Source: Owenia fusiformis
Taxonomy: Eukaryota > Annelida > Polychaeta > Sabellida > Oweniidae
Assembly (NCBI GenBank): GCA_903813345.2
Contig: CAIIXF020000008.1
Coordinates: 37,698,867-37,762,866 of the forward strand
DNA: 64,000 nucleotides
Direction of reading: 5' to 3'
Shown here: one piece after another, positions 1 to 55,085 of the stretch
Position numbering within the stretch: the first letter of the stretch is position 1
How the letters are laid out: each line of letters opens with the position of its first letter
Made by a program: the position numbers and the translations under genes
Notes under the pieces: generated by a model
The model's database searches: none
Seen by the model: the letters and a program-made list of their open reading frames with translations, nothing else
Told to the model about the DNA's origin: nothing

Positions 1-213
1 TATATTTTCTTCACCCTGCAATTATTAATCGAGTGGCTGATAATGCCTTCAGCAAAGCCACTTCAAATGTATAATGTTTATGTATGTTATGTATTTGTAA
101 AATAAATTCTATGAATAAAAAAACTCCATTATCACACTAAACATCTTTAAATCCGTAAAACGGTTGCATATTGGGATGTAGGTTGTTTGAAATACGATTA
201 TCAGTAAACCTAC

Positions 214-799
214 GTTCACATGTTACATCGGATCCACTCCATTCCAAGTTTCCCCCGCTGGTCTCTGTACATCTCCGAATTTGGTCTCCAGTCAAAACAA
301 ACCCTTCATCGCATATGAAAAATGCCAGCGCTCCGAGAGTTCTGCCGCTTATTTCAAAAGTTCCATATGTGGGAGCGAATAGATGGTCGCAAACTGTAAA
401 TGCAATTTCAAAATTGTTTTTATAGGACTGTTAATATCTATCCTCGTTGCAAACTTGATCGTACACATTTAAGTAAAAATATACTATACTACTTGATGCA
501 GCCCTTGGCCATTATTTCACCTAATACCTAGTACTCAGGTGTTCATTCTTTACATAATAAGTTTCACTTTATCAATAATAAATAACATATTACTAACGCT
601 CCTCGCTGTTACTGCTACTGCCTCTTTGTCGACTGTCTTTATGTTTGGATTTCTTGCTACTACTATTTTTGGATTTCTTGCTACTACTATTTTTGGAGAT
701 GTTTTTGCCTCTCTTCCTCCATCTAAATCGCCCTCTTTTATGACCGCAGATACAGGCTTCAATGAAGACAAGCAGAACTATCGCTACGATTAGCTTCAT
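214..799 (-). CDS. Secreted Sushi (CCP) domain protein, 5' part; exons 598-799 and 214-393
   Basis: Exon 1 (799 down to 598) starts MKLIVAIVLLVFIEACIC, a typical signal peptide. A very basic Lys/Ser/Arg-rich stretch follows (SSSKKSK repeats, about residues 19-65). The exon ends at a GTTAGT donor in phase 1. Exon 2 (393 down to 214) follows a TTTACAG acceptor, is 180 bp and phase 1-1, the usual arrangement for Sushi exons. It encodes CDHLFAPTYGTFEI, FFICDEGFVL, IRRC and LEWSGSDVTC, giving the four-cysteine/one-tryptophan Sushi pattern. Sushi domains mediate protein or carbohydrate binding in secreted and surface proteins, often in immunity and adhesion. The rest of the gene lies before position 1 and I could not place a third exon confidently. 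The exon join is inferred from matching phase; the exact protein is not recognised. Confidence 0.72.
660..707. repeat. 24-bp tandem duplication inside exon 1 of the Sushi gene
   Basis: A 24-bp unit (TTTCTTGCTACTACTATTTT plus 4 bases on the plus strand) occurs twice in succession. On the minus strand it encodes a repeated eight-residue Lys/Asn/Ser block. The duplication keeps the reading frame. Confidence 0.7.
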
Positions 800-1484
800 C
801 TCAACTGGAAAAGAGTTACTAGTTACTAGTAAGTAGCAAGTTAGCTTTCGACTGGAATTGTCTTACCATGTACTATCTGCTGCCTTCATTTCTGTATTCA
901 CAGCGTATAAAGCAGATGAGTTTCTTAGAATAAAAAGCCAAAATAGCATTCCAATCAGAAAGCCCAACAAGAAGAATAAAAGAAACAATATTTTCGTCCA
1001 ATCAATTTACATTCGAAGCGTTAAAAGATCCCGAGGCGGTCTTGTATAAAATCATCAGTGTCAAGGGACAAAAATTATGAACAAAATAAGAGGTTTTTAA
1101 CCATACAACGCTTTTTGAAAGTGCATACCTAAGAATGTCACAACTTTAAATCGTCAAATAATCTAATAGTCCTATACGCGCTAACTTTTAACCAACGAAA
1201 TATTCTTATCTCCGCGTTAAAGAGTTCAGTTTCGTGGTACAACTTTCTCAACATCCGGGCACTTTCCCATTGGAATAACATTGGCGGTGATTTTCAATGA
1301 CGCATTGGGACTTTATTAGATGTTTATCATGAATTATATTTGCACATACGATAGATATGATCATTATAAAGACATTTGACAAGTTTTTAAAAAATATATT
1401 CACCAGAACCGTCAAAATCATAAGTTGAAAATTCCAGTGACGTCACAGATTTACCGGAAGTTGCCCAGTTCCCGGAATTTGCTC
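800..1484. other. Upstream region of the Sushi gene, no gene seen
   Basis: This should hold the promoter and 5' leader of the minus-strand Sushi gene. A weak TATA-like stretch lies near 905-912 on the minus strand. The short open frames here have no recognisable protein features. Confidence 0.4.
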
Positions 1485-1565
1485 AAGGTGTCACTCCTGT
1501 AAATACCACTTCCGGGTAGGACAGTGTTTTTTAATACTTTAAAAACGAAGCCATGCCAACTTCAA
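1485..1565 (+). repeat. Direct repeat A, left copy
   Basis: This 81-bp segment, beginning AAGGTGTCACTCCTG and ending CCATGCCAACTTCAA, recurs in the same orientation and length at 6962-7042. Here it is followed after 15 bp by repeat B. Confidence 0.9.
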
Positions 1566-1580
1566 CTCCAACTGTGTAAT

Positions 1581-1869
1581 ACTTGAAAGGCATTGCTATA
1601 ATGATTGACAAAATGAAATAATCTCAGAGATTTTGCGTCTAAAATTTTTGCACGAGATCTCTGAAGTTGATGACCCAATTTTAGGTCATTTTGGCCAGTT
1701 TTTAGAGACTCAGCCCTCACCCATTTCCCCAAAAATGGCTAGATTTTGTAGAAAACGTGTTAAAAGTTTGGAAATGCAGCTGTTCCGAGCATGAAATAAC
1801 TCCATTGTTTGAAAAAATGCTAAATGAGCAAAAAATATCATGGTCAACTTTTCCCGTTTTGGGTATTAA
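1581..1869 (+). repeat. Direct repeat B, left copy
   Basis: This 289-bp segment, beginning ACTTGAAAGGCATTG and ending TTTTGGGTATTAA, recurs with few differences and equal length at 6675-6963. The two copies flank the RAG1-like gene. Confidence 0.9.
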
Positions 1870-2870
1870 TATCCCTGCCTTAGATTGGCTGCCACTTGCG
1901 CAGAGACCATGGATGTTGTAGAATTTCAAAATTGTGTCGATATTTATATTCAGGCTAGGCCACACAATGATTTTAATTCACATTTAAACATCCTGTGCCT
2001 ATCAGAATGGCCAAACGGGGGCCCAAAGGGATCATAAATGGGAGAAAATCAACTGGAATTCCATCAAAATTGCTGGTTATTTCTCCATAAATTACATGAT
2101 TTTAAGGTTCCATACCTCATTTAAATTGCTACAATGTTGCAAATTATCATTTTTACAGGCTTAATAAACACGCCAGGTGTATCACAGAAAGGGTAATCAA
2201 GATTAATTTGTAAATTGCTACATTGTAGCAATGGTATGAGTATGATGTCACAATACACTGGGGCCTAACTGGCGTAATTAGGAGAAAAAGGGCAAATTTT
2301 GCACATGGGGACCACATTTGACTCAAAATATTTGCATTTAGCAACATACATTTCAGTTCATTCTGTGTAATACTTCACTTGCATTTCAAACGCTAGATTC
2401 CTGCCTTGGATATTTCTGCAGAGATAAGATGATTAATTACACCAGGCCTGTTCTGTTTATACTCATTATCATATGATTATAGCACAGCCCACTATTGGCT
2501 GTTGCTTGAGTCACGTGATCCTACATCCCATAATAATTGCTATAGCGACAGGATGCTACACACAAATATACTACAGATTCTAGTTCAAAATTACTATTTT
2601 CATTCATGATTCTTGGTTCTGACCAGCTGTTGTGCATATATTATGTGTAGATATAACCACTTAACTCCTACAAGACCAAACTTTGTAAAAAGACATACTC
2701 TTTACAGAGATATCTTTGGTCTTATGTTGGTATGGTACTTTTGGAAGAAAAATGCAATTACTCCCCGAATGTGAGACTTCTGTTATCTAAACAAAATAGT
2801 TCCTCAGATTAGAAATTAAATTATGTACCCTCATTAGAAAGTTCAAGGAGTGCTCTATTAGAAATTACTT
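1870..2870. other. Non-coding stretch left of the RAG1-like element
   Basis: No plausible gene is seen. It lies between repeat B and the candidate left end of the RAG1-like transposon and is probably part of an older element into which that transposon was inserted. Confidence 0.4.
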
Positions 2871-5800
2871 AGAAAAGTGTCTCCCATGATGTAGGTTTTG
2901 AGAAAACTGCAACGAAAAAGAGTGTCTTATTTTAATAAATGTTTTGATTTTATTCAAAGTGATATCTATTTAGACAATATCATTATGAGATATGTAGGAT
3001 TTTAAGTCATAAAATGGATGTAAACATACACAACAAAGCATTAGGACTACTATGCAGACTTTGTGGATCAAAAATACAGAATGCAAAACAAAGGATTAAC
3101 AAAAAATGCACAATTAAAAAATGCAAAAATGCTAAGCAGGAAATTTTAGAAAAACTTTCCATTAATATTAGATACGATTGTGATTCTATACATCCATACA
3201 ATGCTTGTGAAAAATGCTATAAGGACATTAAAAGAAAAAACTATTCTTTTACACAAGATTTCAGAGAAAATGTTTACACAATAAATGACAAATGGAAGCC
3301 ATGTGGTGTTGATTGTTGGACATGCAGTCAGTATGAAAGTGAATATGCTTTTAAAAGAACTGTAAATGAGCAAGGTATACAATGTGTACAGAAAAGTGGA
3401 CAATCAAGCACACCAATTAAACAGTCTGGATCTAATAGCATAAATTGCCTTGAAGGATTAGTCCATACATTTGATCAACGTTCCACCCCAGCAAAATCCT
3501 CAACATGTGTCGCAACACAGGTGACTCCCGGACGCTACAGTTCCGTTGAGAAACTTCTTCAGCCAATTAAAGATGGTTCAATGACAAAAAAACAAAAGAA
3601 AGCTTTGCGATCATTATCATATATGGCTCTTGATAAATCAGGAGATGGAAGCTTTGAAGTTGATAAGGTAATTTTCTCTGATTATAAATATAAACATCTG
3701 GGTAATTAAATGTCAATTTTATGCAATCAACTATCAAATCATACTGGCATTATTCTAATCATACTGTGGATGATATAAAGTTCACTCTACATCATTTTAC
3801 ATCATCCAATGTAAATATTTAAGGACAAGTGTTGGTTAAGTTTTCATGATCATCCATTTTCATCCCCTATACTTTAATATCCATTATACTAGCCTAATTG
3901 AATCTTTTTTATATATATTCAGCGTACGACCTATATCAAGGTGCCAAAATATAGGGTAAACAGCACAAAGGCAAATGCCAAACAAAAGGCCCGACGTAAC
4001 AAATGGATAACAAAATGCAGAAACATGGTATCTGGCAAAAATGAAGAAGATTCAATCGCTCAACACGCTTGTGAGATTTCTAAAAGCAAACAGAGGATTG
4101 ATATTTTGAAACGTGCAGGGGTATCGATCAAACAACTATCTCGCAAGGAATCGTTATCCATGAAGTGCAAGGCAAACCTGTCTTGGAAACAATTAGGTAC
4201 CGTAAAAAAATACCTGCGCCATGCAGGTGTAAAGTTTGAAAGTGAGAAGAAAGAGCGACAGTACAGATCTGAACTTTTAAAAGATATTATGTTGCAAGGT
4301 GAAACTATTATCATGAAAGTTAAAAACAAAAGTGCTCCAGATAGCAGAAAAGGTTACGTCAAGAGAGCCAGACCTCATGTATATATTGATAACCTCAGTG
4401 AAACGATCAAAGGGCAATTTGAAAAACTGACAGAATCCAATCAACTTTACTGGTCACCAGGTATGCCATTCGATGAAGTATGGGTAAAGATTGGAGGTGA
4501 TCATGGAGGAAATTCCTTTAAAATGGAATTTCAAGTTTTAAATGTCAAAGACCCTAATTCTCCCCAGAACTGTGTTGTGTTCAGTGCATTTGAGGCAATG
4601 GATTATCGTGAGAACATAAGAGCTTCTCTTGAGAGATTTATACCTCAAATTGATAAACTATCAAATGAACAAATCATGGATAAGGATGTCAGAATGTTTG
4701 TGTTCGGTGATTATGAGTTTTTGTGTAAGGCATATGGCTTGTCTGGGGCAAATGGAAAATATCCTTGCCTGTTTTGTGACATAGACAAGGAGACTATGCA
4801 CACCCCTACATCAGAGAGAGAATATGAAGATAACCCCAGAACTCTTAAAGAGCTAAACAAACAACATGAACTTTTTCTTGAAGAGGGTAAAGGATTGAAA
4901 AAAAATGCAAAAGAATATTTTAACTGTGTTGAAAAGCCTATCCTGAACATTCCCATTAGCCAGGTGTGTATCCCCTACCTGCATATTTTACTCGGAATTG
5001 TATTGAAACATCATAACCATCTGATCGAGATGTGCCATGCATTAGACAAAGATATTGCGTTAGACATTTCAAAAATGGGGAACATGCGAGATGATAAAAA
5101 TGACACCCAGTTTGGACAATATATTTTGCATTTGAAAAAAATCCGTGACCTCAGGGCAGAATTACGTAACAGCAAGGGAAAGAAAATGCGGAGACTAGAG
5201 GATGCGATTAGAAAAATGAAGGAGAAACTCGTTCTAAAGGAAGGATCTGGAGTTCTGGCATCTAGTCTCGATGATGCATTGAAGCGAAATAAAATAGAAA
5301 GACAGGCCTACCACAGTCATTCCTTCATTGGGAATCATTGTCATCAGTATCTTCAGGTGAGCAAAAAATATATACATTTAAATTTAAATTATTAGTCAGT
5401 ATTAGTTAAATACTGGACATCATTCACATTTTTGATATGCATGTACATACAAAGAGTACTGTTCCCCATTTCTATTCTGCTTTTTCATGTTTTCCTTGAG
5501 AGTCATGTTTTAACAATGATTCCAGGAACATGTGTATACTGACATTTGCCAGTCAGTTGTGACGAAAACTGAAGAGCTCAGTCAAGGTCTTCCGAGGCGT
5601 GACTATCTAATTACAGAGGCCACAAAGATATGCAACACAATGAAGCAATTGAGTTATCTGTTTTCAAAGGTCCACAGAAGTGTTTCACACGACTTACCAA
5701 TTGATGACAAAAGTGTATATATCATTCAAGATGAAATAGATGCATATCTTAATTATTATCGGGTAAATATTTGTCAAAAAATTACCCCAAAACAACATAT

Positions 5801-6223
5801 GCTGGAAAACCACGTCTCTGAATGGATTTCACAGTGGAATCATGGGATGGCATTCCATGGTGAGCAGGGAGGTGAAGCAATTCACAAAATATATAACACT
5901 ATTGGGAGAAGAATGCATTTTGGCAATAGACTTAAACGACTTATGTCAACTGTCACGGAACAAATGGCATTAGTTTCTCCCGAAATATCAAATGCAGAGC
6001 CAGAAACAAAAAGAAGAATTTTTAAAAATAAAAAAACAGTGTAGACAATGGGAGTATTGTTATTATTTTACTTAAAACAGAAATCTGAATGTAAATGCTG
6101 GTAGTAAATGAAAGCAAGTAATTTTAGTAAGTATACTGTCAGAAATGTGATGTTAAATATGTAAATAGTTGGACTTTACAATGCTCTATATATCAATCAT
6201 TAAGCCGTGGGAGACACATTTCT
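2871..6223 (+). mobile_element. Candidate RAG1-like DNA transposon, about 3.35 kb
   Basis: The intact RAG1-like gene is closely bracketed by an inverted repeat. AGAAAAGTGTCTCCCA lies at 2871-2886 and its reverse complement, with one mismatch, at 6208-6223. That leaves about 140 bp before the start codon and 180 bp after the stop, a compact autonomous layout. I see no convincing 5-bp target duplication outside these repeats, and they do not start with the CACTRTG-type ends of Transib or ProtoRAG. The boundaries are therefore provisional. Confidence 0.45.
3014..6044 (+). CDS. RAG1-like transposase (N-RAG region plus DDE core), three exons, ~868 aa
   Basis: Exons are 3014-3667, 3923-5356 and 5526-6044, all joined in phase 0 at good GT/AG sites. 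The uninterrupted protein is about 868 residues; vertebrate RAG1 is about 1,040. The N-terminal part resembles the RAG1 zinc-binding region before the RING finger: CRLCG (C14, C17), DCDSIHPYNACEKC (H60, C65, C68), then W94KPC and CxxxCxxC at 97-104. I see no RING finger. The core matches RAG1 in order: GGDHGG (D411), VFGDYEF (D481, like RAG1 D708), PCLFCD (C500, C503, like the ICTLCD zinc ligands), EKPILNIPI with a following His-rich helix, and HVSEWIS then HGEQGGEAIH (E809/E813, like the RAG1 region of E962). These suggest a DDE-type nuclease that cuts and joins its own ends. GTG codons at 3941 and 5532 are internal, not starts. No RAG2-like Kelch protein is nearby. Motif matching is from memory, not an alignment run. 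Confidence 0.85.
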
Positions 6224-6674
6224 TTTAATATTTAGAAAAAACAAAGACTATATTTAACAAATGTTCAATCTTTGAAAAATAAAAAAGTGAAGATAATATG
6301 ATTTTAGAGTTTGAATATGCACAAAAACTGTTGGTTTAATCAGCATTAAGCAAGTTGACTCTTACAAATGACAAAGCATGTATTTTTGACTTAATATGGG
6401 ATATATGCATAGTATAATTTCATAATTTCTTTTAAAATATATAAATTAAACAATTGCATCAAGTTAAATATATTTTCTCTTTGTTTTCTTTTATAAGAAG
6501 TTTTAATCTTAACGTTTTTGGCAAAATTGTGAAAAGCGAGAATTTATAGCAAGGGCAGATTCTGGCATCAGCTAGGCTTAAGCTGGAAAGCTACTGCAGG
6601 AATGAGGTCAGATCTGTCATGGCTGACAGCTGTTGATTAATGGTCAGGCTCTAAGTCCATCTGATTCCAGAGTG
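6224..6674. other. AT-rich flank right of the RAG1-like element
   Basis: No gene is seen. The stretch is very AT-rich and leads into repeat B. Confidence 0.4.
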
Positions 6675-6963
6675 ACTTGAAAGGCATTGCTATAATGATT
6701 GACAAAATGAAATAATCTCAGAGATTTTGCGTCTAAAATTTTTGCACGAGATCTCTGAAGTTGATGACCCAATTTTAGGTCATTTTGGCCAGTTTTTAGA
6801 GACTCAGCCCTCACCCATTTCCCCCAAAATGGCTAGATTTTGTAGAAAACGTGTTAAAAGTTTGGAAATTCAGCTGTTTCGAGCATGAAATAACTCCATT
6901 GTTTGAAAAAATGCTAAATGAGCAAAAAATATCATAGTCAAATTTTCCCGTTTTGGGTATTAA
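6675..6963 (+). repeat. Direct repeat B, right copy
   Basis: Second copy of the 289-bp segment found at 1581-1869. Here it runs directly into repeat A without the 15-bp spacer seen on the left, so the A-B order is reversed relative to the left side. Confidence 0.9.
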
Positions 6964-7042
6964 GGTGTCACTCCTGTAAATACCACTTCCGGGTAGGACA
7001 GTGTTTTTTAATACTTTAAAAACGAAGCCATGCCAACTTCAA
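6962..7042 (+). repeat. Direct repeat A, right copy
   Basis: Second copy of the 81-bp segment at 1485-1565. It overlaps the end of repeat B by two bases. Confidence 0.9.
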
Positions 7043-7907: not shown

Positions 7908-7988
7908 GGATATTTCCATCTTCTTTTCTACTTATTGTCTGGATTATAGAATATTATTATACATATGTACTAATGTTGGATCGGGATA

Positions 7989-10007
7989 ATGCCAGTGAAG
8001 CACTGCGCGGCTGGAAATTGCACAAGCGATAGCAGAAAACTCAAAAACTTGGAAAACCATCCATGGATGAAAAACATTTCATTTTTTGAATTTCCAAAAA
8101 GTGAGGATAAACAAATTTGGATATCAAAGACAAAACGGGTAGACCCCAAGGACAATAGAAAATCATGGACCCCTCCGCCACACGCTGTTCTGTGTTCAAG
8201 ACATTTTGTAGACTCAAAACCAACTGATTCCAACCCCCACCCTACACTTTTTGATTATAATGGTTACCAGATAGATAGGCCCAGGACTCTGAGCAGTAGA
8301 AATGCTCAAGATGTTTCACTCCGATCAGGTGTCAAGAGGAAAAGTTTGACTGAAATGTACAATACAAGAAAGGGTTTCAAACCAGGCCTTTCAAATGTCA
8401 TTGAGCTTGATAGTGAGGGTGATTCCAATGTTGCGACGAGTGAAGTGACTGAAGTCATTGTTGATGTAAGTAGACAAATCATTCAGCCTGGACCAACCTT
8501 GTTAGTTAAGGTACATGTGAAATCTCAATAAATAATCAATTTTTTATGTTGTCACTTGTACGACCCAGTTATAGAAATTTGAACAAGAAAACACAAATCA
8601 TCGATACATCATTCATTCATTTAGGCATTAAGGCTATGTCTTCCTTATATGGATTGTCAAAACTGAGCTGTGTAATATTGCATCATTCTTGACTTATGGA
8701 TATGCCCTAGTTTTATATCATTTTTAGGTTGCAGCAAAATGTGAGCGTCAGGCATATTAAATTAAATGTTTGTTTATGTGTTATTGTAGGACCAGATACC
8801 GATTGGGGCAAATGTAGAGGTAGCAGAACAAGCGTCAAAACCTGACAAACCTATCAACTGTGGAGCTGTGTTCGAGATTCACAAAATACAAAGCAAGGAA
8901 CACAACTATGCATATATGGACAGTTCTAATATGCAAATTAAGGGCCAAGCAAATGATATTGCGACGCAGACAGACTGCGATTCGATACGATTTGATGAGA
9001 TGTTTAGTGCTTATGAGAGGTTGCAGAACAAAAATCAACTGAGGAGGGACCTTTTTCTTGAAAAAGTCCTGGAAAATGACAAAAGCATCAAAAGATACAC
9101 TGGAGTCCCAGGCAGTGAAGTATTACTTGGGCTATTTGAATTGATTTCAAAATCAACTAATAACTTTAAGAATATTTTCTACTGGAAAGGTGGCAAGAAC
9201 ACTAAGCAAGAGAACTTTGGTAAGACCCACAAGACACGAAAGAGAATATTAACTCACTTTCAAGAATTCATACTGACTTTAGTTCGTTTCCGCCTGGGAC
9301 TGCTTGGTTTGTTTATGGCAGATCTGTTTGGTGTATCCAATTCAGTGACATCAAGTGTCTTCAGCACATGGATCAATATTATGAATCATGTTTTCTCCCC
9401 ATTCATCAAATGGGCTTCGAAGAAAACAACAAGAAAGAATCTTCCTTCTGGCTTTAAGATGGACTACCCTAACACAAGGGCCATTATTGACTGTAGCGAG
9501 TTTTTTGTGGAGAAACCGTCAAATCCAACTGCCCAGAGCTGTACATACAGCACATATAAATCGCATAATACTGCCAAAGTACTATTCTCTATCAGTCCCT
9601 GGGGCTCATTTAATTTTGTCTCCAAACTTTATGGAGGTAATGCATCTGATCGCTTCATTACCAAGGACTCCGGTTTTGTGGATCAAGTAGAGGAAGGAGA
9701 CAGTATAATGGCTGACAGAGGGCTTACAATTCAGGACCTTCTTTTAAGGAAGAAAGCTGTCTTGAATATGCCTCCTTTCACTCACAAAACAAAGAAGGGT
9801 AAGGGAAAATGGCTAAATTCAAAGGAAATTCAGAAAACGCAGAGGATTGCTAAACTGCGTATACATGTGGAACGTGCGATTGGTCGTCTGAAATGGTTCC
9901 GCTTGATAGGGAATGTTATTCCATTGACTCTGAAACCCTTGTTGAACCAGATGGTAAATGTTGGCGCATTTTTGTGCAATCTCTCACCCCCTCTGGTGAA
10001 AAAGTGA
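7989..10007 (+). CDS. THAP-domain DDE_Tnp_4 transposase, two exons, ~564 aa
   Basis: Exon 1 is 7989-8465 (GTAAGT donor) and exon 2 is 8790-10007 (TTGTAG acceptor), joined in phase 0. Residues 1-90 form a THAP zinc finger: C6, C11, W26, then VLCSRHF with C69 and H72, and a final PTLF like the THAP AVPTIF box. THAP fingers bind specific DNA. After a linker, a helix-turn-helix of the HTH_Tnp_4 type (about 312-355: TLVRFRLGLL, DLFGVSNSVTSSVFSTW) precedes a DDE_Tnp_4 nuclease: IIDCSEF (D393), GDSIMADRG (D468) and HVERAIGRLKWFR (E520). This combination is typical of animal IS4EU/ISL2EU-type or related THAP transposases. The frame has no break, so it is either recently active or kept by selection. 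I could not identify its terminal inverted repeats. An alternative donor at 8511 exists but gives a weaker site. Confidence 0.85.
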
Positions 10008-52708: not shown

Positions 52709-54284
52709 TCTATTGTCTAATGGATGAGTTGTCTTGGGGATCAATTGACTTTGGGGATCAATTGACTTTGGGATGAGTTGGTTCTTAGCAACCAGTTGTC
52801 TTGGAAATCAGTTGTCATGGGGACTAATTGACCCTGCAATCTACATGTATCGTGTACAAAAGTATATGTAAATCAGGGTGTTTGTTCTTGCAAATGGATA
52901 TCCATTTGATCTCATTTCTTTGATCTGATCTCTCTTTTAGGATTTATTAAGGGAATGTGACAATGTATTGTCAAACCACATATACCAGGAGGCACTGGAA
53001 AAATGCAACAGAATGAATAGATGGAGAAACCATTGAATAACCTGGAGGGGGATAGGCACACCACACAAGCTCAATTACTCAAGGTAAATTTTGGGATATT
53101 TTACAGAATGGAGCCGAAATTATACACAGGGTGTTCCATCAAAATTGTATTCCCACATACTTGAACCCTCAACCCTTATAAACAGATGTCTCAAAAGAAA
53201 TTGTAGAGATTATCCAAAGTTACATTTCTCTCTCATTTGTATGGATACTTCAAGAGATGAAAGCACAATGCAAACTCAACTAGCACGAGTGAAGGTCTTC
53301 TTATTTACTATTACAAACCCTCTCGTAGTAATACAGTGCAAATGTATTTCCCTAACATATTTTACATTCAAAATATTACAAGTTACGGAGAATGAAAAAT
53401 GCAACTCATCTAAAATTATCAGGCGTAATTGCTCAGATTATTAAAGCTAAAAGCATTACTTCAAGCAAACAAAGTGACTGTATGTAAATGAAAGTATAAT
53501 TTCTCCAAAAAGGATATTCCTGTACAAATAGAGGATGGCCAGAGCCTGCTTCATCCCATGCAGACACGGGAGAGAAAACTCTGTCAAATTTCTTGGTATT
53601 GGGTCCAGACACCATCCGGCAAAACCTTCACTACGATTATGAAACTTTGACAAAACGACTCGCAGATACCAAGGGCACATTAGAGAGCTGTCTCCTGGAG
53701 TTGTCACAGTATGGTAACAGCACAGATCAGGTGAGAATGAGTATCTTTATTCCAAAAAGTTGGGAAATGATGCTTATTAAGTGAGCATTTGAACACTGAT
53801 TTTGAGGAAAAACAATTAAACACTGAAGATATGTCTCAGAGTCCAACAATTTATGCAATTTTTAAACTAACTCTTTATATGACTTGAAATAAGAAACAAT
53901 TGAGGCACAGGGTGAGCCAAAAATGTTAATCGAAACAAATGTTAAAAACTAAGTCATTCAGCATTGTTTAAGATCATATTTATAATCACCATTAAACCTT
54001 TTCAATTTTCTTCATCTTAGAAGTATGGCTATATTATACTAAAGCTGAAGGCATTTTAGAGTAGATCACAATTATGGCATTGTTTTTCTGATTCTTGCCT
54101 CAGAAAATTAAAAATGGCTGGAATAGGCCATAACTTAGAGATATGATACTACAATGATCTATTTATTGAAGGGAAGAGTGCGATGGTAAATATTACATTG
54201 TGACTGTACAGTTCATGATTTATATATGTTCGTTGGGATTCCCTACGCCTTGGAGTTGCCAATTTCTAGTTGTAAATTGTGAAT

Positions 54285-55085
54285 TGTAGGTTCTACAACA
54301 TGAGTCAGATCATCCCCAGGTTCTACAACATGAGTCAGAACATCCCCAGGTTCTACAACAACATGATTCAGAACATCCCGAGGTGCTACAACATGAGTCA
54401 GAACATCATCAGGTTCTACAACAACATGAGTCAGAACATCCCCAGGTTCTACAACAACATGAGTCAGAACATCCCAAGGTTCTACAACAACATGAGTAAA
54501 AACATCATCAGGTTCTACAACAACATGCGTCAGAACATCATCAGGTTCTACAACAACAGGAGTCAAAACATCATCAGGTTCTACAACAACAGGAGTCAAA
54601 ACATCATCAGGTTCTACAACATCATCAGGTTCTACAACAACATGAGTCAGAACATCATCAGGTTTTACAACAACATGAGTCAGAACATCATCGGTGTCTA
54701 CAACAACAGGAGTCAAAACATCATCAGGTTCTACAACAACATGAGTCAGAACATCATCAGGTTCTACAACAACATGAGTCAGAATATCCATCACCAGGTT
54801 CTACAACAACATGAGTCAGAACATCCCCAGGTTACAACATGAGTCAGAACATCCCCAGGTTCTACAACATGAGTCAGAGCAATGCATCCCCAGGTTCTAC
54901 AACAACATGCGTCAGAACATCATCAGGTTCTACAACAACCTGAGTCAGAACATCATCAGGTTCTACAACATGAGTCAGAGCAATGCATCCCCAGGTTCTA
55001 CAACAACATGCGTCAGAATATTCCCAGATTCTACAACAACAGGAGTCAGAACACCATCAGGTTCTACAACAACATGAGTCAGAAC
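54285..55085 (+). repeat. 33-bp minisatellite (GGTTCTACAACAACATGAGT core)
   Basis: About 24 units of mostly 30 or 33 bp: GGTTCTACAACAACATGAGT followed by CAGAACATCATCA or CAGAACATCCCCA. Length changes are mostly multiples of three, so long frames stay open on both strands (FYNNMSQNIIR-type on plus, VVEPDDVLTHV-type on minus). I treat these as a by-product of the repeat, though an exon within it cannot be excluded. Confidence 0.85.

Follow-up and report, generated by a model that had tools for sequence, protein, structure and literature searches.

The sequence analysed is a 64,000-nt stretch of the Owenia fusiformis genome (contig CAIIXF020000008.1, positions 37,698,867 to 37,762,866, forward strand), referred to below as the window. 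A three-exon gene is found on its + strand at 3014-6044. Exon 1 (3014-3667, residues 1-218), exon 2 (3923-5356, residues 219-696) and exon 3 (5526-6044, residues 697-868 and the stop codon) join into an 868-aa open frame, and both introns (3668-3922 and 5357-5525) are bounded by GT-AG. Splicing from an alternative donor, nine bases further upstream, would yield 865 aa. An earlier note on this DNA had described an intact spliced gene of three unbroken exons here, and its coordinates and frame are right.

Exon 1 encodes a Chapa / RAG1 N-terminal-type zinc head. In a Pfam search with the whole protein, RAG1_imp_bd (PF12560), used as a stand-in model for the Chapa domain, matched residues 2-127 (about 3017-3394, + strand) at E 2.1e-7 and 31.2 bits (cut-off 23.3); exon 1 alone matched the same model at E 2e-9. 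DUF1280 (PF06918) matched residues 282-465, encoded by exon 2, at E 1.4e-21 and 77.6 bits (cut-off 25). Exon 2 also carries the predicted catalytic residues D411 (codon 4499-4501) and D481 (codon 4709-4711), the CxxC pair C500/C503 and H572 of an LH motif, and exon 3 supplies the HxxxxH motif (H787/H792) and the predicted catalytic E809 (codon 5862-5864). These motif columns are invariant in nine of nine aligned sequences, one per family of the genome. The RAG1-type zinc region in exon 1 and the D, D, E and CxxC residues in the order of the RAG1 core, both proposed in the earlier note, are therefore present. The RING finger that it reported as lacking was not found in the 868-aa protein by Pfam at E up to 10 (HMMER filters lose most matches above E 0.1). 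Single-sequence structure prediction gave a pLDDT of 36.2 for exon 1 and 36.9 for exon 2, too low to judge the fold, which the earlier note had named as a check.

Some other features of the window were recorded. A THAP-domain frame (7974-8531, +) stands ahead of a DDE_Tnp_4 frame that includes HTH_Tnp_4 (8790-10007); the region 7974-10007 (+) is a second DNA transposon gene close to the first element. A tandem repeat at 54243-54842 is open on both strands, with units VVVEPDDVLTH and NIIRFYNNMSQ. A frame at 137-430 (- strand) may encode a sushi/CCP domain, which it resembles by eye.

Ends of the element, empty sites and sister families

The gene lies inside a DNA transposon of 4,299 bp (2376-6674, +) with the ends CACTTG...CAGAGTG. 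Joined-flank comparison places a target-site duplication ACTT at 2372-2375 on the left and at 6675-6678 on the right. The left edge at 2376 is sharp against a high-copy repeat, and the same repeat picks up again at 6679. The sequence left of 2376 has at least 38 matches besides the window and a second copy of the element on contig C6. This interspersed host repeat, the insertion target, is found in the window at 1485-1869, 2300-2375 and 6679-7042, and its copies are 93-100% alike over 74-88 bases among the matches listed. Six of the at least 38 repeat copies were fetched as empty sites, and in all six the sequence ending at 2375 is joined unbroken to that starting at 6679. Five of the junction-spanning alignments (L023, L024, L026, L027 and L028) run over 382 to 476 columns, and the sixth (L025) breaks 50 bases past the junction. 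A second repeat copy inside the window (1400-1900) also crosses the junction, with just 13 bases on the left. Since the joined flanks match intact repeat copies, the limits of the element are set at 2376-6674, with CAC...GTG ends and ACTT flanks.

Two other sets of limits were considered. The element contains a 16-nt inverted repeat of 94% identity (2871-2886 / 6208-6223), which was rejected as the true ends because flanks joined at 2375/6679 rebuild an intact repeat. A right end at 6347, within the 3' non-coding part of the element (6045-6674, +), was first suggested by the C6 copy, whose match stops there; it was rejected because that copy breaks off at this point and the joined flanks rebuild the repeat.

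At least 58 stretches of the genome match the 868-aa protein, three of them being the window's own exons. At least 39 DUF1280 matches and at least nine RAG1_imp_bd matches (E up to 1) were found in the genome. Copy pairs among the relatives are 98.8-99.7% identical, and an exact 4-bp duplication stands beside CAC...GTG ends in 13 of the 14 sister copies in which both ends were identified (the count leaves out L002 and L003, with unreadable ends, and L017, L018, L029, L030 and L031). Sister families have terminal inverted repeats of 8-23 bp; the relative L009 has 23-bp repeats, without a matching 4-bp duplication. The near-identical pairs and clean duplications indicate that the sister group has moved recently. 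The recent mobility proposed in the earlier note is thus supported for the relatives; of the window's own family, a single deleted copy was found besides. Among viral contigs and bacterial and archaeal genomes, pattern matches to possible relatives were seen and none was confirmed.

Assignment to Chapaev and alternative readings

The locus is almost certainly a full-length, potentially autonomous DNA transposon of the Chapaev superfamily, with one gene that joins a Chapa zinc head to a Chapaev/DUF1280 DDE core with a C(2)C...H(4)H zinc pair. The assignment is made on features of the sequence, namely the DUF1280 match, the motifs, the ends, the duplication and the Chapa head. According to PMC4079192, Chapaev elements are marked by 3- to 4-bp duplications, CAC...GTG ends and the motifs C(2)C, LH and H(4)H; the window element has CAC...GTG ends, the 4-bp duplication ACTT and all three motifs. 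Against it, the terminal inverted repeat of the window copy is CACT only, the 16-nt inverted repeat lies within the element, and only one other copy of the family was found, which is deleted.

Alternative readings of the locus were weighed against the Chapaev assignment. If the Chapa gene and the transposase gene were two separate genes that are neighbors by chance, the 255-bp intron 1 and the change of frame after it would be accounted for. That reading is next to impossible in our judgement, as the relative L009 lacks intron 1 and encodes head and core within a single 904-aa stop-to-stop frame. Other relatives continue across the exon 2/3 junction in one frame without an intron, and both observations support the joining of the exons. 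In addition, among 30 loci scanned by motif, the head signature is found upstream on the same strand at 20 of the 21 loci with a Chapaev-core frame (L018 was chosen for its head and the remaining loci for their core). At the remaining locus, L003, a zf-AD match interrupted by a single stop is found upstream. The earlier note would have been refuted by homologs with exon 1 in a separate gene, and the homologs do not place it in one. Another reading takes the element as a RAG1-like (ProtoRAG/TransibSU) or Transib transposon and hence as directly related to the RAG1 core. The order D, D, CxxC, LH, HxxxxH, E is that of RAG1, the second D and the CxxC are 19 residues apart in both proteins (D481-C500 here, D708-C727 in RAG1), and the head profile matches the RAG1 N-terminal region, as described below. 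Searches with the core itself point the other way. The Pfam RAG1 core model PF12940 gave no match to the 868-aa protein at E up to 10, a range in which the HMMER filters are lossy above E 0.1. A PF12940 profile search of the whole genome also gave none, a weak result as the controls were equally silent. A core profile searched against solved structures found no RAG1 or Transib, its matches all being saposins (E 0.36 and 1.1). Comparison of the profile with one RAG1 core sequence gave E 0.32. The duplication is 4 bp long, in contrast to the 5 bp given for Transib and TransibSU in two reports (PMC8355894, PMC4411706). The gene is preceded by 638 bp of the element and followed by 630 bp, too little for a RAG2-like gene, and such a partner was judged absent on the strength of this space and the listed open frames. 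We consider the RAG1/Transib reading very unlikely. As far as the searches made can tell, the core is of the Chapaev (DUF1280) type and of neither the RAG1 nor the Transib type. DUF1280 is identified with Chapaev transposases and grouped with RAG1 in clade II, which belongs to the endonuclease part of an RNase H-like tree (PMC3985635). The label "RAG1-like" that the earlier note gave to the core applies at superfamily distance only, since no RAG1 was detected beyond the motifs and DUF1280 and RAG1 share clade II.

The third alternative is a host gene domesticated from a Chapaev transposase, as the unbroken frames had suggested in the earlier note; that only one intact copy of the window's family was found also fits. 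We consider it very unlikely as well. The locus has full ends and an exact target-site duplication within a repeat of which empty-site copies exist, and a deleted, non-autonomous copy is present in the genome. This C6 copy is about 97% identical in the aligned pieces and has the same left edge, with two large internal deletions and the right end missing. Over 203 codons, the window and C6 copies differ by two synonymous changes in 129 sites and eight non-synonymous changes in 480, with one stop in C6, and the non-coding divergence is 2.35% (28/1,190). The alignment behind these counts takes in a 4-base and a 6-base block within a deletion, both probably noise. The differences look neutral, at low power, and no constraint is seen. 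There is no sign of host function at what is, on these data, a flanked transposon insertion with neutral-looking rates relative to C6.

For the Chapaev element, a role of the protein as a cut-and-paste transposase is most likely. It would bind the CAC...GTG ends, and its DDE triad would excise the element and join it to the target with a 4-base stagger, which would leave the 4-bp duplication. The zinc head may have a dimerizing or DNA-contacting role.

The zinc head, RAG1 and ZAD

When the whole protein was searched as one sequence against solved structures, its match to 21wb, the RAG1 N-terminal entry, reached only E 0.025. A profile of 13 heads from the genome, the window's included, matched 21wb at E 1.9e-10; with 17 heads, the trimmed profile gave E 5.3e-10. 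The 17 heads are those with the cysteine signature, trimmed from the genome and taken one per family. Eleven of them match the Pfam model of the insect ZAD domain (zf-AD, PF07776) at E <= 0.01, the best at 4.7e-8, and 10 of the 17 match RAG1_imp_bd at the same threshold. In one set of shuffled heads with Cys positions fixed, zf-AD was matched by 1 of 17 (E 0.0039) and RAG1_imp_bd by none. The head of L030 (L030:3894-4610) matches both models, zf-AD at 31.0 bits (cut-off 28) and RAG1_imp_bd at 23.2 bits (cut-off 23.3). No zf-AD match was listed by Pfam for the window's own head, searched as the whole protein, exon 1 or the trimmed head. The N-terminal region of RAG1 matches zf-AD weakly (E 0.0055).

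Searched across the genome, zf-AD had 22 matches (E up to 0.1): 15 are no more than about 2.2 kb away from a Chapaev core match, two more lie at RAG1_imp_bd matches and five are unlinked. Among solved structures, the trimmed head profile also matched LD30467p (7po9), which we take to be the ZAD of M1BP, at E 0.003, and the anti-sigma factor Fin at E 0.0047. Because the zinc protein Fin was matched at nearly equal E, the 7po9 match alone is no proof of ZAD kinship. A match of the head profile to a single grauzone ZAD sequence (16 columns only, E 0.021) was left uncounted. ZADs form homodimers. Whether the Chapa head, the vertebrate RAG1 N-terminal zinc region and the insect ZAD make up one domain family is, in our estimate, an evenly balanced proposition. 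If they do, the RAG1 head would be a transposon-borne zinc module of the ZAD type, with the Owenia Chapaev set as the bridge. A literature search that left out most subscription papers found none that connects ZAD with RAG1.

Contig C3 carries a 1,034-aa open frame (L032:1451-4555) with a Chapa-like cysteine pattern at its start and DUF6589 (E 1.2e-9) further on; here a Chapa-type head may be joined to another kind of core. The frame scored 20.5 bits against PF12560 (27.1 bits with neighbors) in the genome search only; the match is absent in the frame scan. A literature search on DUF6589 found no paper.

Comparison with known elements and the origin of RAG1

The window element shares with the 4-bp branch of Chapaev (CMC megafamily) the DUF1280 core, the motifs C(2)C, LH and H(4)H, the CAC...GTG ends, the 4-bp duplication and the Chapa head. 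It differs from Chapaev in its terminal repeat of only 4 bp (CACT), and also in the RING that follows Chapa in two Chapaev subgroups (PMC4411706), none being listed for the window protein. Chapaev3 elements (Merrow, Garfield and Conan) have the core motifs of the Chapaev superfamily and the Chapa domain (PMC4079192, PMC4411706) and differ in their 3-bp TWA duplications (PMC4079192), the window element having 4-bp ACTT. RAG1, TransibSU and ProtoRAG share the N-terminal zinc region and the order of core motifs with the window protein. The window element differs from them in that no similarity of core sequence was detected, its duplication is 4 bp long and not 5, a RAG2 partner would not fit into it and no RING is listed. 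N-RAG-TP of Aplysia is likewise a transposon with a RAG1 N-terminal-like protein, but it is said to consist wholly of N-terminal-like sequence (PMC8355894). N-RAG-TP might itself belong to Chapaev, as a whole element or a piece of one.

The earlier note had also held that finding both parts in one intact protein bears on how RAG1 arose. The protein with both parts is real and the union is not new: in PMC4411706 (Kapitonov and Koonin 2015), the Chapa domain is a truncated RAG1 N-terminal part found in Chapaev and Chapaev3 transposases, and head and core are inferred to have been fused already in an ancient common ancestor. In the other scenario, as outlined in PMC8355894, a Transib was joined by N-RAG-TP. 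Because the head/core union and the inference of an ancient fusion are already in PMC4411706, the window is one more intact case of a known union and opens no question that was not open before. The element fits the published view that the two parts of RAG1 were together in an ancient transposon, and is not the source of that view. What the locus provides is an intact, well-bounded case of a transposase with both a RAG1-type zinc head and a DDE core, and many related families are present in the same genome. With this rich Chapaev set, the origin of the RAG1 N-terminus can be tested by profiles, and so can its possible kinship with ZAD.
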